Shown: positions 9,577 to 60,645 of the stretch, one piece after another
How the letters are laid out: each line of letters starts with the position of its first letter
Numbering within the stretch: the stretch's first letter is position 1
Origin: Pseudobutyrivibrio sp.
Lineage (GTDB): Bacteria; Bacillota; Clostridia; Lachnospirales; Lachnospiraceae
DNA length: 64,000 bases
Direction of reading: 5' to 3'
Assembly (NCBI RefSeq): GCF_015057185.1
Contig: NZ_SVEV01000010.1
Span: forward strand, 1 to 64,000
Notes under the pieces: generated by a model
Database searches by the model: none
What the model saw: the letters and a program-made list of their open reading frames with translations, nothing else
Told to the model about the DNA's origin: nothing
Made by a program: the position numbers and the translations under genes

Positions 9577-9625
9577 GAATTTTTCCTCCTTATAATTTTT
9601 AGTGTTGCTTATATGAGGATAAAGT

Positions 9626-9744
9626 AAAAAACCTCTATGCCATAAAGACATAGAGGTGATTAATCGATAAATACTTAATCGTCCTCGGCTGGTAGAGAAT
9701 AATCTCTTTACGGCTAACGCCACCTGCTGTCTTCGGCAACAACT
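9626..9744 (-). promoter_or_regulatory. L10 leader with terminator (autoregulatory mRNA leader)
   Basis: Between the rplJL promoter and rplJ, the minus strand carries the pattern of the Firmicutes L10 leader: GCCGAAGACAGCAGGTG near the 5' end, a kink-turn-like internal region, then ACCTCTATG...CATAGAGGT (9657-9631) followed by six T (9631-9626). In the known system L10(L12)4 binds the leader and favours the terminator, giving feedback on stalk protein synthesis. Identification rests on sequence resemblance and position; the terminator hairpin is directly visible. Confidence 0.85.
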
Positions 9745-9750
9745 TTGTGC

Positions 9751-9780
9751 ATTATATCATTATGTATATTGGATTGTCAA
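9751..9780 (-). promoter_or_regulatory. Promoter of rplJL
   Basis: TTGACA (9780-9775) and TATAAT (9756-9751) are separated by 18 bp. It starts immediately after the rplA stop codon and would initiate just upstream of the L10 leader, so stalk genes can be expressed separately from rplKA. Confidence 0.88.
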
Positions 9781-27592: not shown

Positions 27593-27694
27593 ATCTATCC
27601 CATTCCCTAAATGTGCTCTATCAACTACATTTTTAGAATCTCTGCATCCGTATGCCATAACCCTTACTTTTTGTAATTGTATGTTGGAAGACGA

Positions 27695-27864
27695 CAATGT
27701 TACATAAGATATTTAAGTGAGTATAGCGAAAGCGATACTTAAATGTTTTATGTAACATTGGAGTCTAACGCTTTCTCAACCTAAGTTGGTTGAGAACAAT
27801 TATATATTACTAATTTGGGCGAGTATAGCGAAAGCGATGTCCAAATTAGTAATATATAATTGTT
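27695..27864. repeat. Pair of long hairpins with a shared apex and unrelated stems
   Basis: Hairpin A (27695-27760) has a perfect 13-bp outer stem (CAATGTTACATAA/TTATGTAACATTG), a 3x3 internal loop and an 8-bp inner stem (ATTTAAGT/ACTTAAAT). Hairpin B (27795-27864) has a perfect 24-bp stem beginning AACAATTATATATTACTAAT. Both carry GAGTATAGCGAAAGCGAT at the apex in the same orientation, though their stems share no sequence. A smaller CTCAACC/GGTTGAG hairpin lies between. There are no T-runs, so they are not ordinary terminators. They fill the hup-rqcP gap. Confidence 0.92.
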
Positions 27865-27885
27865 ACCACAACCAACGCAGTCCTC

Positions 27886-42245: not shown

Positions 42246-42287
42246 GTGGACTATAATAACACATTCCCGCCCACAAAAAAACAAACC

Positions 42288-42948
42288 CGCCACCGGGCCA
42301 TGGCATAAGTGGTCCACACCTTCTCAACAAGATTTGACCAAGCCCCTTTACGCCCCTGTGGCACCGAGGGTAATGCAAACTTTGCAAGAATATTATGTTT
42401 TCCATATATGCAAAGTGTCGCATCTTTAATTAGCATGTGTCTTTCTCATGTCTGTACAATTTTGAAAAGCTGTTTTCCATAGGTGGACACACAAATCCTT
42501 TAAATAATTGTGCATTTCAGACTCAGGGGAACTTGGCGCGATTTTGGAGTGCGCTTAGAAAATTAAAAACAGGATTATCAATATATTGGCATGCGCCGCT
42601 AGGATGGCGGCGCAAGTGCGACACGCGACACGATGTCGTATAAAGCACGGTGCCAATATATGATAATCCTGTTTTTTAAATTTTCTTAGCAAACGTAATA
42701 TGAGCCCAAGTCCCCTGAGTTCTGAGATGCACAGTTAATGAATCCAAAGTGTCCACCTAGCAGGAAAACACTTTTCAAAATAGTTCATCCATAGAAAGAC
42801 ACATGCGAGATGCTCCCTTTTTGCATATTGGAAAACTATAATATTCGCAAAATTGTTTGCATTACCCTTGGTGCCACAGGGGCGTAAAGGGGCTTGGTCA
42901 TTATACTATAACCGGGTGTGGACGCTTATGCCAGGACCCCGGTGACGG
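42288..42948. repeat. Giant interrupted palindrome, copy 1 (about 660 bp)
   Basis: Left half (42288-42610) and right half (42630-42948) are complementary almost end to end. 42337-42380 pairs with 42855-42899 nearly perfectly over more than 40 bp; GGCATAAG at 42302 pairs with CTTATGCC at 42925. The core (about 42551-42690) has a long stem around CAGGATTATC/GATAATCCTG and a branched apex with two GC-rich hairpins. The right outer arm includes the stop codon of the rod-protein gene (42926). No ORF inside looks coding. A homologous element in inverted orientation is at 54691-55380. Confidence 0.95.
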
Positions 42949-43384
42949 TGTTTGTGTTTTCTTTGGCAATGTCCTCGGAAACTGAGGCGTCATCTGGGCT
43001 TATATCCTCTAATGGAAGGTTCGTAGTACCTGTGATACCGTAGTTGCGCATAATCTGGTCTACGAAGTCTTCGGTGATATTGTCACCTACTTGGTCGACG
43101 ATTTGCGAAGCCATTTCGGAGTACATTTTGTCCATGAAGAAGTCTTTGTACATGGAAATGCTGTTGTCCTCTTCTTCGTCGTTTTCGTCTACGAAGGATT
43201 CCTTCATTTGCTTAAGGACTTGCTCCATCATGTAGGTTTCGAAGCTTTTTACGGCTTCAGTAACTTCTTCTTTGCTGGAATCCGCGGTGATTTTTCCTAT
43301 TGACTTTGTGGTTTCCTCGGCAGCCTGCTTAGCTGCATTTGCGTATTGCGACTGCAAATACGTGTTCATTGTTGTTACATCCAT
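42926..43384 (-). CDS. FlgJ-like rod-binding protein
   Basis: A 152-residue protein containing the FlgJ N-terminal rod-binding domain (FETYMMEQVLKQMKES...SMYKDFFMDKMYSEMASQI, about 50-105) but no muramidase domain. It probably caps or chaperones rod assembly. A Thr/Ala-rich N-terminus and a flexible acidic C-terminus flank it. The ATG at 43384 (MDVTTMNTYLQS) follows AAGGGGGATGGG; a longer reading overlaps that site. It follows flgG in the same operon. Its last codons (TVTGVLA) lie in the arm of the giant palindrome, so the palindrome has shaped, or been shaped by, this coding end. Confidence 0.85.
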   Translation of the reverse strand: MDVTTMNTYLQSQYANAAKQAAEETTKSIGKITADSSKEEVTEAVKSFETYMMEQVLKQMKESFVDENDEEEDNSISMYKDFFMDKMYSEMASQIVDQVGDNITEDFVDQIMRNYGITGTTNLPLEDISPDDASVSEDIAKENTNTVTGVLA

Positions 43385-43453
43385 TTTCCCATCCCCCTTA
43401 GTGAACTTGAATTTCCAAATCCGCAATAATGAAAATTCTACACCTACTATTTA

Positions 43454-53019: not shown

Positions 53020-54684
53020 ATGAGTAACACAAGAACAGACAACGGACCTATGCTTAATGCATATCCAGATAGCATGGGTACAAAACTTTCGGACATTATT
53101 AAAGTCCTTCAGAAACCTGAGTTCAAAGACGTATTCCAGTCTTTTTATATACTACCTAGCATTTACAATACGGATTTGGACAGGGGCTTTTCCGTATTTG
53201 ATTACGGAATCAATAAGGAGCTTGGTTCTGCTGATGATATCGCAGCTTTAGGAGAGTTGGGTATTGATTTGAAGCTTGATTTTATTTTAAATCACGCTTC
53301 TGTTCTCTCACCACAGTTCCAGGACCTTATTAAAAACGGGGAGAATTCTATATACAAGGATTTCTTCATCAACTGGAACAAGTTCTGGGAAGGTTATGGA
53401 GAAATGACTGAGGGAGGATACATCCAGCCTGATCAGAAATATATCAAGGATATGTTCTTTAGAAAGCCTGGCCTCCCAATCCTTATGGTTCGCATGCCTG
53501 ATGGCAAAGACGTACCATATTGGAACACATTCTATCAGGAAGTACGCTACAAGCGTCCTGATGGAATGGATTTGATGGATATCACTGATATTTCTTACAC
53601 ATCAGCAAATACCCTTGCTAGCAGAATCTGCCAAGCTTTGGATGAAGGCAAAACACCTTCTGACATTGATTTCAGCGGATTTGAGCAGCACAAGGAAGCA
53701 ATCGTAAACTACCTTGAGTCTACACGCCGCTACCTTGGCCAGATGGATTTAAATATCAAGTCTGATTTGGTTTGGGAGCACTACAGAAACACTCTTAAAA
53801 CTCTTTCAGAGTATGGTGCTAAAATCGTTAGACTAGACGCATTTGCATACGCTCCAAAGGAGCCAGGCAAGAAGAATTTCCTTAATGAGCCTGACACATG
53901 GGACGTTTTAGAAAGAGTCAACGGATTAGCTAGCGAATACGGTCTCTCACTACTACCTGAGATTCATGCCACATACGGCGAAGGAACTTACGAGACAATC
54001 GCTTCAAAGGGTTACATGACATACGACTTCTTCCTTCCAGGACTTCTTATCTACACCTTGGAAGAAAAGGATCCTACATTGCTTGTTAACTGGGCAAAGG
54101 AGCTTATTGAAAAGAAGATTCGTGTAGTAAATATGCTCGGCTGCCACGATGGTATTCCACTCCTTGACCTTAAAGGAATGCTACCAGAAGAGGAAATTCA
54201 GAAATTAATTGATATCATCGTTGGTCGCGGTGGTTATGTAAAAGACTTACACGGCGCAAAGAACATGTACTACCAAGTAAACGCAACCTACTACAGCGCT
54301 CTTGGTGAAGACGACAAGAAGATGCTTCTTGCTCGTGCCATCCAGATGTTCATGCCTGGCAAGCCACAAATTTGGTATTTGGATTTATTCGCTGGCAAGA
54401 ATGATTACGAGGCTGTTAAGCGTGCAGGTGTTGGCGGTCACAAGGAAATCAACCGTACAAACCTCTCACCAGAAATGATTGAAGAGGCCCTCGGCAAAGA
54501 AGTAGTTCAAAAGCAGCTTGAACTCTTACGCTTACGCAACACACACCCAGCCTTCGGATTCGAATCAAACTTAGAAGCAAGTGCCGACGGCAACACCTTG
54601 GTACTCGCTTGGGAAAACGGCGGACGTCACGCAAAGCTCACAGCCAACCTCGTCGACTACAGCTACACCGTCACAGTAGACTAA
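53020..54684 (+). CDS. GH13_18 glucoside phosphorylase (sucrose phosphorylase-like)
   Basis: A 554-residue cytoplasmic enzyme of the sucrose phosphorylase subfamily, releasing alpha-glucose 1-phosphate from a glucoside. The catalytic nucleophile is in IVRLDAFAYAPKEPG, the acid/base Glu in LLPEIHATYG, and the third Asp in LGCHDGIPLLDLKGMLP. YQVNATYYSALG and GGHKEINRTNLS are also characteristic. Members act on sucrose, sucrose 6-phosphate, glucosylglycerol or glucosylglycerate, and I cannot fix which from sequence alone. AAAAGGAG precedes the ATG. It pairs with the kinase gene and is followed by a terminator at the edge of giant palindrome copy 2. Confidence 0.9.
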   Translation: MSNTRTDNGPMLNAYPDSMGTKLSDIIKVLQKPEFKDVFQSFYILPSIYNTDLDRGFSVFDYGINKELGSADDIAALGELGIDLKLDFILNHASVLSPQFQDLIKNGENSIYKDFFINWNKFWEGYGEMTEGGYIQPDQKYIKDMFFRKPGLPILMVRMPDGKDVPYWNTFYQEVRYKRPDGMDLMDITDISYTSANTLASRICQALDEGKTPSDIDFSGFEQHKEAIVNYLESTRRYLGQMDLNIKSDLVWEHYRNTLKTLSEYGAKIVRLDAFAYAPKEPGKKNFLNEPDTWDVLERVNGLASEYGLSLLPEIHATYGEGTYETIASKGYMTYDFFLPGLLIYTLEEKDPTLLVNWAKELIEKKIRVVNMLGCHDGIPLLDLKGMLPEEEIQKLIDIIVGRGGYVKDLHGAKNMYYQVNATYYSALGEDDKKMLLARAIQMFMPGKPQIWYLDLFAGKNDYEAVKRAGVGGHKEINRTNLSPEMIEEALGKEVVQKQLELLRLRNTHPAFGFESNLEASADGNTLVLAWENGGRHAKLTANLVDYSYTVTVD

Positions 54685-54700
54685 TCTTAATAATTCACTT

Positions 54701-54734
54701 TAACGGCTCTTTACTTCAAGGGCCGTTATTTTTT
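54701..54734 (+). terminator. Terminator after the GH13_18 gene
   Basis: TAACGGC/GCCGTTA stem with a 14-nt loop, then ATTTTTT. It forms part of the left outer arm of giant palindrome copy 2. Confidence 0.85.
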
Positions 54735-55335
54735 GCCCACTTTTTCTGTGGCCCCGCCCACCTCTGCCCGCCAGGCTCCCTAGGCACCTTTGTAACACAA
54801 TTTCGCGAATATCGTAGTTTTCCAATATGCAAAAGGGAGCATCCCGCATGTGTCTTTCTATGGATGAACCATTTTGCAAATTGTATTTTTATTGGGCGGA
54901 CATTTTGGTTTATATAAATTGGTACAACTCAGGTCTCAAGGGGGAATTGGGTTCATAGTACGTTTGCTAAGAAAATTTAAAAAGCAGGATTATCATATAT
55001 TGGCACCGTGCTTTATACGACATCGTGTCGCGTGTCGCACTTGCGCCGCCGTCCTAGCGGCGCATGCCAATATATTGATAATCCTGCTTTTAATTTTCTA
55101 AGCGCACTCCCAAATCACCCAATTCCCCCTGAGCCTGAGTTGTACCTAGTTTAGTTATTTGTGTCCGCCCATAAAATACTTTTTGCAAAATTGTCCAGAC
55201 ATGAGAAAGACACATGCCAATAAAAGATGCGAGTCTTTGCATATTTGGAAAACAAGATATTCTTGCGATGTGTTACAAAGGTGCCTAGGGAGCGTGGCGG
55301 GCCGGGGTGGGCGGGGCTAATAAGGGGCTGGGCCA

Positions 55336-55370
55336 TAAAATAACGGCCTCCAAGGTGGTGGAAGCCGTTA
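55336..55370 (-). terminator. Terminator after uvrA
   Basis: TAACGGC/GCCGTTA outer stem with an inner CC-CC/GG-GG pairing, then ATTTTATGG on the minus strand. It mirrors the opposite terminator at 54701-54734. Confidence 0.75.
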
Positions 55371-55377
55371 AAGTGAA

Positions 55378-58203
55378 TTATTTAAGATAGTCTTTCAGGT
55401 ATTGACCGGTGTAGCTTTTCTTGACTTTGACGATTTCTTCTGGCGTTCCCTTTGCGATGACGGTGCCGCCGCGGTCGCCGCCGTCAGGGCCCATATCGAT
55501 GATGTAGTCGGCACACTTGATTACGTCAAGGTTGTGTTCGATTACTACTACGGTGTTGCCAGAGTCTGAGAGCTTGCGCATGATTTCTACAAGCTTGTTT
55601 ACGTCGTCGAAGTGGAGTCCTGTAGTTGGCTCGTCAAGGATGTAGATGGTCTTGCCTGTGGCACGACGTGAAAGCTCTGTAGCAAGCTTGATACGCTGGG
55701 CCTCGCCACCTGATAGTGTGGTGGATGGCTGGCCAAGCTTTATGTAGCCAAGACCTACGTCATAGAGGCATTGGATTTTGTTGGCTATGCTAGGCACGTT
55801 TTTGAAGAATTCTACTGCTTCTTCTACGGTCATATCAAGGACGTCGTAGATTGTTTTGCCCTTGTAGTGGACTTCTAGTGTCTCGCGGTTGTAGCGCTTG
55901 CCACCGCATACTTCGCAAGGAACATAAACATCTGGAAGGAAGTGCATCTCAATTTTGATGATACCGTCACCAGAGCATGCTTCGCAGCGTCCGCCCTTTA
56001 CGTTGAAGGAGAAGCGTCCCTTGTTGTAGCCACGCTCCTTTGCCTCAGTTGTGCCTGCAAATAAGTCACGTATTAGGTCGAATACGCCTGTGTAGGTGGC
56101 TGGATTTGAACGTGGTGTACGTCCAATTGGTGATTGGTCGATATCGATTACTTTATCAAGAGCCTCGACACCAAGGATGTCATCGTGCTTTCCTGAAATC
56201 TTACGGGCACGATTCAGTCGTTTTGCTAAATCCTTGTAGAGAATCTCATTAACAAGAGAACTCTTTCCAGAGCCTGAAACACCTGTGACTACTGTCATGA
56301 TGCCAAGTGGTATGTCAACATCTATGTTTTTAAGGTTGTGCTCTCTGGCACCCTTTATGGTAAGCCATCCGTTTGGCTGTCTGCGCTCCTTTGGAACAGG
56401 AATGCAGAGTTTACCACTAAGATATTGGCCTGTGATGGAATTTGGATTGTCCATAATTTCCTGAGGAGTACCTGCAGCAATGACCTCTCCACCATCCTTG
56501 CCTGCACGAGGGCCGATATCCACAAGATAGTCTGCGGCCTTCATGGTATCTGCATCGTGTTCTACAACTATTAGTGTATTTCCAAGGTCTCGAAGGCCCT
56601 TGAGTGATGCTAATAACTTGTCGTTATCCTTTTGATGAAGTCCAATAGATGGCTCATCTAAGATGTAGGCAACGCCAACAAGTCCAGAACCAATCTGGGT
56701 GGCAAGACGAATTCGCTGAGCCTCACCACCTGAAAGTGTAGCTGTTGCACGGCTAAGTGTAAGGTAATCAAGTCCTACATCTACCATAAATTTAAGTCTG
56801 TTTCTAATTTCTTTTAGGACAACAGCACCAATTTTTTTCTGTTGCTCTGTAAGCTCGAGATTGTCGATTAAATCGTAAAGCTCATGAACTGGGTACTGGG
56901 TCATCTCAAATATATTTTTGTCTGAGATTGTAACAGCAAGGGATTCCTTTTTTAGACGCTGTCCATGGCAGCATGGGCAGTCACTATAAAACATAAATTC
57001 CTCGTACTCTTTCTTCTGATTCTCTGAGAAGGTTTCTTTGTAGCGACGATTAACATTTTCAATCAAGCCTTCGAAAACGGTAGGATACACTCCTCTGCCT
57101 CGCTGTCCCTGATAGTGAACATCAACTGATTTGTCAAAGCCATGAATAAACATGTGACGAATATTCTCTGGCAGATCCTTGTAAGGTGTATCAAGTGAGA
57201 ATCCGTATTCTTCTGACAAAGCCTCAAGAAGGGCATGGGCAAAGCTTGAAGATTTGTTAGAGGATTGCCAACCAATAACCTGCACTGCTCCCTCATTGAA
57301 GGATAGGCTCTTGTCAGGAATCATAAGATCCTCATCAAATTCCATTTTGTAGCCAAGTCCAAAGCACTCAGGACATGCACCAAATGGATTGTTGAAGGAG
57401 AAGCTACGAGGCTCTACCTCATCAATGCTGATACCGCAATCTGGGCAGGAGAAGCCCTCAGAAAATCTAATTGGTTCTCCATCGATTACATCAACAATCA
57501 TAAGGCCGTCTGCAAGCTTTAGTACATTCTCAATGGAATCTGTAAGACGCTTTTCTATACCCTCTTTTATTACAAGTCTATCAACCACAATCTCAATGTT
57601 GTGTTTGATATTTTTATCAAGCTTTATTTCCTCTGATAAGTCGTAAACATTACCATCAACATTTACACGAACATAACCAGACTTTTTAGCCTTTTCAAAA
57701 AGCTTTTCATGAGTACCCTTTCGACCTCTAACTACAGGAGCTAAAAGCTGGATTTTGGTACGCTCTGGTAGAGTCATGATGGCATCAACCATCTGGTCAA
57801 CTGTCTGCTTACTGATTGGTTTGCCGCAATTAGGGCAATGTGGTATACCGCATCTAGCGTAAAGTAGACGCATGTAATCATAAATCTCTGTGACAGTACC
57901 AACTGTAGAACGTGGGTTGTGGTTAGTACTCTTTTGGTCAATGGAAATAGCGGGTGGCATGCCTTCCATGTGCTCAACATTAGGCTTTTCCATTTGGCCT
58001 AAGAACTGACGGGCATAGGAAGATAGAGACTCCATGTAGCGTCTCTGTCCCTCTGCAAATATAGTGTCAAAAGCCAATGAAGATTTACCAGAACCTGATA
58101 AGCCTGTGAGAACAACAAATTCATCACGAGGAATATCAATGCTGATATTTTTAAGATTGTGCTCGTTGGCTCCTTTTATTTTTATATATTTTCTTTCTTT
58201 CAT
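55378..58203 (-). CDS. uvrA: Excinuclease ABC subunit A
   Basis: A 941-residue dimeric ABC ATPase that finds bulky DNA lesions and loads UvrB. The first Walker A is [27 protein letters not shown]. Zinc modules are visible ([47 protein letters not shown] in part). Two ABC signatures LSGGEAQRI lie in each half. AGAGG precedes the ATG. It follows uvrB by 92 bp containing two hairpins. Together with UvrB it forms the SOS-inducible nucleotide excision repair unit. Confidence 0.98.
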
Positions 58204-60411: not shown

Positions 60412-60645
60412 TTATAAAAGATTTTTGAGAGCTTCGATATCGTCTAAGCTGATAGATTGAGCTGCCTCTTGAGCTGCTTCGTTTTCTTTTTGAATCTCTA
60501 AATATACTTCTTTTCTGTAGATGGATACTTCCTTTGGTGCAGAAATTCCTATTTTGACTTGATCACCGCGAACTTCAAGGACTGTAATCTCGATGTTGTT
60601 GTTGATCATAATCGCGTCGCCTGTTTTTCGTGTTAATGCCAACAT
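60412..60645 (-). CDS. csrA: Carbon storage regulator CsrA
   Basis: A 77-residue RNA-binding dimer that blocks translation of target mRNAs (hag flagellin in Bacillus) at GGA motifs. The core [51 protein letters not shown] is standard, including the C-terminal Arg used for RNA contact. The C-terminal extension (about 57-77) is the form antagonised allosterically by FliW. It starts two bases after the fliW stop. GGATGGTGAG serves as ribosome binding site. Genes are coupled as FliW-CsrA, as expected. Confidence 0.97.

Follow-up and report, generated by a model that had tools for sequence, protein, structure and literature searches.

Long palindromes are generally considered unstable in bacteria. 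The Correia, ERIC, RUP and Rickettsia palindromic elements of bacteria are mostly shorter than 200 nt, and very long inverted repeats that make up most of an element are known from the eukaryotic foldback transposons Galileo, FB and Tm1. Template switching at inverted repeats is reported to homogenise arms and invert spacers (PMC8604942), and to yield compensatory, also multibase, changes (PMC8794818). The RNA family TwoAYGGAY (Rfam RF01731) was described by Weinberg and colleagues in 2010 as a probable RNA that is probably not cis-regulatory (PMC2864571), and Gardner and colleagues proposed that it binds CsrA (PMC4333381). In the literature searched, TwoAYGGAY is treated as an RNA candidate, is mentioned together with palindromes in the 2010 discovery paper only, and was not found described as part of a whole palindromic element.

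Here we analyse a 64,000-nt stretch of a Pseudobutyrivibrio sp. genome (contig NZ_SVEV01000010.1; the window), which carries two copies, A and B, of a giant palindrome. In both copies the apex matches the RF01731 model over its full length and above the gathering score. In contrast to the family as listed, the apex here caps a dispersed palindrome of several times its length, whose arms are specific to each copy, and in the source genome its first loop reads TAGGAT and the second lacks GGA. With bacterial MITEs such as those named above (PMC2229807), the element shares that it is short, non-coding, dispersed, palindromic, intergenic and presumably mobilised in trans; it differs in its near-continuous pairing over ~600–750 nt, its co-changing arms, the inversion of its apex and its mirrored host flanks. 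The eukaryotic foldback transposons belong to other hosts, and the likeness to them is one of architecture. Arm homogenisation, spacer inversion between close relatives and compensatory change are shared with template switching at quasi-palindromes, which in those reports (PMC8604942, PMC8794818) concerns short repeats (arms of 7–16 bp in a yeast table) or RNA genes, whereas here the arms measure hundreds of nt, belong to a mobile element and have captured flanking gene ends. We conclude that copy A is probably a bacterial foldback MITE: a transposable element in the form of a giant palindrome, non-autonomous and without ORFs, whose arms, once in place, would act as mutual templates in replication. 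Among MITEs it would be a variant that makes mirror copies both of itself and of its surroundings.

Two giant palindromes with RF01731 apices

Copy A including its mirrored flank occupies 42261–42972 of the window, as defined by alignment of its left and right halves (blastn self-match, 42269–42967). Its neighbours are recD2 (TIGR01448) and a small rod-type gene (ORF 42926–43426, – strand), whose matches to FlgJ were weak and under the curated cut-off. A preliminary description, made from the letters of the stretch, had reported a giant palindrome here, and our measurements agree: the best-paired parts of the left and right outer arms (42335–42380 and 42855–42900) are 46 nt long, 98% complementary and separated by 474 nt, and three additional paired blocks follow inward. 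The core, an imperfect palindrome common to the copies of the source genome with boundaries fixed across copies, spans 42381–42853 (+ strand). It contains the branched apex, at about 42551–42690 as had been claimed, within the RF01731 match at 42542–42701 (+ strand; 63.9 bits, gathering score 43), and an apical hairpin at 42593–42613 (+ strand), whose loop TAGGATG is referred to below as the GGA loop. Where the preliminary description had recognised no described family, the apex is thus RF01731; searches with the RF01731 model yielded, in addition, related elements with palindromic arms in other genera.

Folding of both strands as RNA, a check named in the preliminary description, bore out the structure. 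The + strand of the 661-nt stretch folded at –387.7 kcal/mol, whereas 20 shuffled versions averaged –174.9 (z –28); for the – strand, z relative to shuffles was –24.6. The longest ORF mostly within copy A has 72 aa, in line with the statement that no coding sequence is plausible here. The right arm indeed takes in the stop codon of the rod gene, together with more than 20 nt of its coding end (42909–42945, – strand; sequence and self-alignment), and pairs through it with an inverted copy of this gene end on the recD2 side (42289–42321).

Copy B, which the preliminary description had not covered, occupies 54661–55416; a sucrose-phosphorylase-like gene lies on one side of it and uvrA on the other, and the ends of both genes fall within the palindrome. 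Its core (54800–55269, – strand) holds an apex oriented opposite to that of copy A (RF01731 match at 54955–55114, – strand, 64.4 bits against the threshold of 43). Terminator-like stems flank this copy at 54700–54740 and 55340–55375; they have the same stem and different loops, and one looks as if it had been copied across from the other side.

A common core within copy-specific arms

The source genome contains 23 RF01731 matches, and comparison of these copies separated a shared core from arms specific to each copy, likewise beyond the earlier description. A core with fixed ends (468–475 nt) could be excised from 20 of the 23. These 20 cores align, at pairwise identities of 68–98% (median 86%); the core is asymmetric, with identical bulges across the copies compared, and its conserved blocks in the alignment include CATGTGTCTTT and its complement. 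In contrast, the arms resemble each other within a copy (at least 79% identical over the inner 40 nt, mean 91%) and are near background between copies even at 96% core identity (0.58 versus 0.52 for shuffled sequences), still so in copies with cores up to 97.7% identical. On the strand reading towards the core the arms are C-rich (41% C, 18% G in the source genome). A Rho-site role for such arms was considered and set aside, the 5' arms of genome G036 looking G-rich by eye. Pre-existing C-rich palindromes as insertion targets were rejected as well, none without a core being found in ~464 kb of the 3.25-Mb source genome, made up of the window and 20 further 20-kb stretches; the nearest candidate was a 70% inverted repeat of 134 nt with 53% GC (L092).

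In a relative with many copies, G021, arms at 96% core identity were 76% identical between copies (4 pairs; shuffles 48%) and 87% within copies. Here related copies have their arms and ends in common, so that for G021 an entirely fresh formation of the arms with every insertion was rejected; only in G021 were arms seen to be inherited through transposition. One core arm in another genome (G012, L034:1153–1412) contains a row of small hairpins resembling nested insertions.

Distribution of the family

RF01731 matches were present in 29 of 61 genomes searched as relatives (27 of 29 within Pseudobutyrivibrio, 2 of 32 outside), and copy number across the genus ranged from 0 to 38 (1–38 matches per carrier genome). 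An even draw of the order, run with the stricter filters used for large RF01731 searches, gave a match in 34 of 392 genomes, 32 of them above cut-off and 30 in the same family. In 18 other genomes of the family, examined at one locus each, the two sides of the apex aligned with each other over 146–704 nt with scores of 17–147, versus at most 14 for shuffled sequences, part of this alignment being the stem that RF01731 already models. The absence of any homologue outside this genome, which the preliminary description had named as fatal to its reading, is contradicted by these related elements with palindromic arms in other genera. Inverted pairs of RF01731 matches 130–300 bp apart also occur in other genera (L238 and L239 in G036, L314 in G333, L315 in G410).

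Fragments of the element lie at contig ends of the source genome (C5, C11, C30, C32, C36 and C44), so its true copy number is probably above 23. With the runs of N in some G021 copies, these fragments indicate that such loci are hard to assemble, and both could be counted in favour of an assembly foldback, the other explanation that would have undone the earlier reading. An artefact is nevertheless very unlikely, to the point of being negligible: the halves match imperfectly, with the same differences recurring across the copies compared, the 20 cores can be aligned, and the element is present in assemblies of other species, including genomes of one and two contigs.

Termini, target duplications and empty sites

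At many places in G021, GTTACCATTCACAG recurs in inverted orientation at a spacing of ~600 nt, and young copies there end in GTTACCATTCACAG inverted repeats. A scan of 38 G021 loci with a loose pattern found a TIR pair in 21, of which three (L218, L227 and L233) had perfect duplications of 8–9 bp; by our own arithmetic ~0.02 perfect duplications would be expected by chance among the scan. Duplications with a single mismatch were seen at L219 and L232. Four further full elements, examined by eye, had a perfect 8-bp duplication (L248, L251), one with a mismatch (L249) or none (L250). Perfect target duplications (8 bp; 8–9 bp in the scan) were found in five copies in total, all evidence of duplication coming from G021, and at most G021 copies no target duplication was detected.

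Seven of 25 same-site comparisons between sister species paired a filled with an empty site (L104, L112, L111, L127, L030, L114 and L124), while the remainder included loci with the element in both partners, loci truncated at a contig end and partial deletions. The empty partners had neither core nor arms; at L114 the right flank matched the empty locus over 25 nt only. An empty site could alternatively represent a clean loss. Both neighbour genes of copy A could be placed in 25 of the other 28 genomes of the genus; they lie 18–139 nt apart in 24 of the 25, and 1422 nt of other sequence separates them in the remaining one (L054). This comparison is weaker than the sister-species pairs because the genomes compared are distant.

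Cores are thus dispersed through the genome, and in G021 a unit of ~600 nt with short TIRs spreads, some copies with 8-bp duplications. As for the features by which MITEs are recognised, we found no coding capacity, dispersed copies and, in relatives, empty sites, and TIRs with duplication in G021 only. Dispersed copies, empty sites, TIRs and 8-bp duplications therefore indicate an ORF-less transposable element, which agrees with one suggestion of the preliminary description, a palindromic mobile element without transposase.

A different explanation for dispersal would be that selection has spread a chromosomal site from which the host benefits, for example a cruciform or a two-sided terminator of transcription. 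It would fit the gene contexts of the 21 complete source-genome copies, most of which lie downstream of a gene (8 between convergent genes, 12 between tandem and 1 between divergent ones), and the terminator-like stems on both sides of some copies. We give it only a slight probability, since copies number from 0 to 38 within one genus, sister species have empty sites, and G021 copies have transposon-like ends.

Neither a transposase nor an autonomous copy was found when single TIR matches in G021 were inspected as possible ends of an autonomous transposon; these were partial elements, matches at an N gap or contig end, or matches free of the element. In G371, two inverted copies of ~300 nt, 97% identical, enclose a C-terminal remnant of a PDDEXK_2 gene (L313:1260–2680). 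PDDEXK_2 (Rpn) as the mobiliser, an idea that this remnant suggested, found no support in the distribution of the gene: it occurs in 26 of 34 carriers versus 12 of 20 non-carriers, and is absent from G011 despite 10 copies of the element.

Arms change together, apices invert and flanks are mirrored

Related G021 copies have outer ends and arms in common, and their differences are mirrored on both sides. Among 3886 arm columns from 55 comparisons in G021, 672 showed a matched change, 723 a change on one side and 323 other changes. In 21 same-site pairs (flank identity >0.85, hand-picked, some loci in more than one pair, and six of the pairs yielding no stem column), 1236 stem columns contained 14 matched double changes, 71 single changes and 3 others; independent change would predict ~1 matched double change by our own arithmetic. 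The apex was inverted in six of the 21 pairs (L030/L031, L123/L138, L135/L136, L113/L116, L132/L190 and L103/L115), and also in two of three pairs of lower flank identity kept outside these totals. Between L103 and L115, corresponding stretches of both arms are absent on one side of the comparison.

Host sequence is mirrored as well. An inverted copy of the right flank, a sequence that the empty site also contains, stands on the left at L104 and L111; L114 has a shorter such copy, some ten bases from its left flank that recur on the right. In copy A it is the rod gene whose end has a mirror copy, beside recD2. The frame of this gene could be placed at 7 of 29 loci, and the C-terminus in the six relatives reads VTEVLA or VTEVQA in four and VQSVQS in two, against VTGVLA here; by this comparison the gene side of the mirror is the older, ancestral one. 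A flanking gene's 3' end is inside the palindrome in 14 of the 21 complete source-genome copies.

Arm-to-arm template switching would explain matched arm changes, apex inversion and mirrored host flanks together; the pattern is observed in the alignments, and the mechanism we infer. After insertion, each arm would serve as template for the other during replication: a nascent strand that had copied one arm would fold back on, or switch to, the other arm, copy outward and return. Such templating would leave near-identical arms beside the core that decay outward, carry changes from one arm to the other, invert the core together with its apex, and extend the palindrome by inverted copies of host DNA such as gene ends and terminators. 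Selection presumably maintains the bulges conserved in the core, perhaps as a transposase site. In principle, compensatory selection or arm-to-arm recombination could also be the source of the matched changes, and recombination between the arms could invert the apex.

The GGA loop and selection on RNA

Alternatively, the element might work as RNA: a transcribed giant hairpin with GGA loops titrating CsrA, its stems kept by selection for RNA pairing. In favour, 146 of 150 copies (23 of 23 in the source genome) have a GGA hairpin loop on the RF01731 strand, versus 12 of 150 on the other strand, a count biased by the search, as the copies were found with a model containing that loop. All 34 carriers and 16 of the 20 listed non-carriers have CsrA (counts without correction for phylogeny), csrA of the source genome lies in the same window (60490–60645, – strand), and the proposal that TwoAYGGAY binds CsrA (PMC4333381) points the same way. 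However, the strict AYGGAY hairpin was found in only 95 of 150 copies and 1 of 23 in the source genome, which thus departs from the family's pattern of two hairpins with AYGGAY loops; such hairpins are kept more often in relatives. Stem mismatches showed no G-U bias for the RF01731 strand (532 versus 550), and 2559 of 3641 were transversions; the stems therefore do not look selected as RNA, which fits a process acting on DNA, and we rejected RNA-pairing selection as the cause of arm complementarity. The inversion of the apex relative to its neighbours in six of 21 same-site pairs also argues against a role as RNA, and dispersal and mirrored flanks are left unexplained by it. We therefore consider this alternative unlikely. 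The 'large structured RNA' of the preliminary description could hold for the apex, where the GGA loop is kept; it leaves the arms unexplained. With copy A taken as a foldback MITE, the GGA loop of the apex may still bind CsrA when the element is transcribed, a putative side role predicted from sequence.

Implications

If copy A is such an element, an RNA family listed since 2010 without known function gains an identity. Its many copies in sister species would provide a natural record of how long palindromes arise, stay near-perfect, invert and enlarge in bacteria. Stem covariation can stem from DNA template switching rather than from selection on RNA, and structured-RNA screens may therefore pick up such elements. 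More speculatively, and less likely than not, the family might represent a class of selfish bacterial DNA in which template switching both repairs the arms of a self-made giant hairpin and adds host gene ends to it, so that the palindrome outruns mutation, with the predicted CsrA loop tying the element's transcript to a host regulator. On that reading RF01731 would stand for a mobile element instead of, or in addition to, a riboregulator.

Other features of the window

Two adjoining AT-rich hairpins at 27689–27766 and 27785–27876 have unlike stems and share the loop core GAGTATAGCGAAAGCGAT. An L10 leader (RF00557) is located at 9617–9754 on the – strand.
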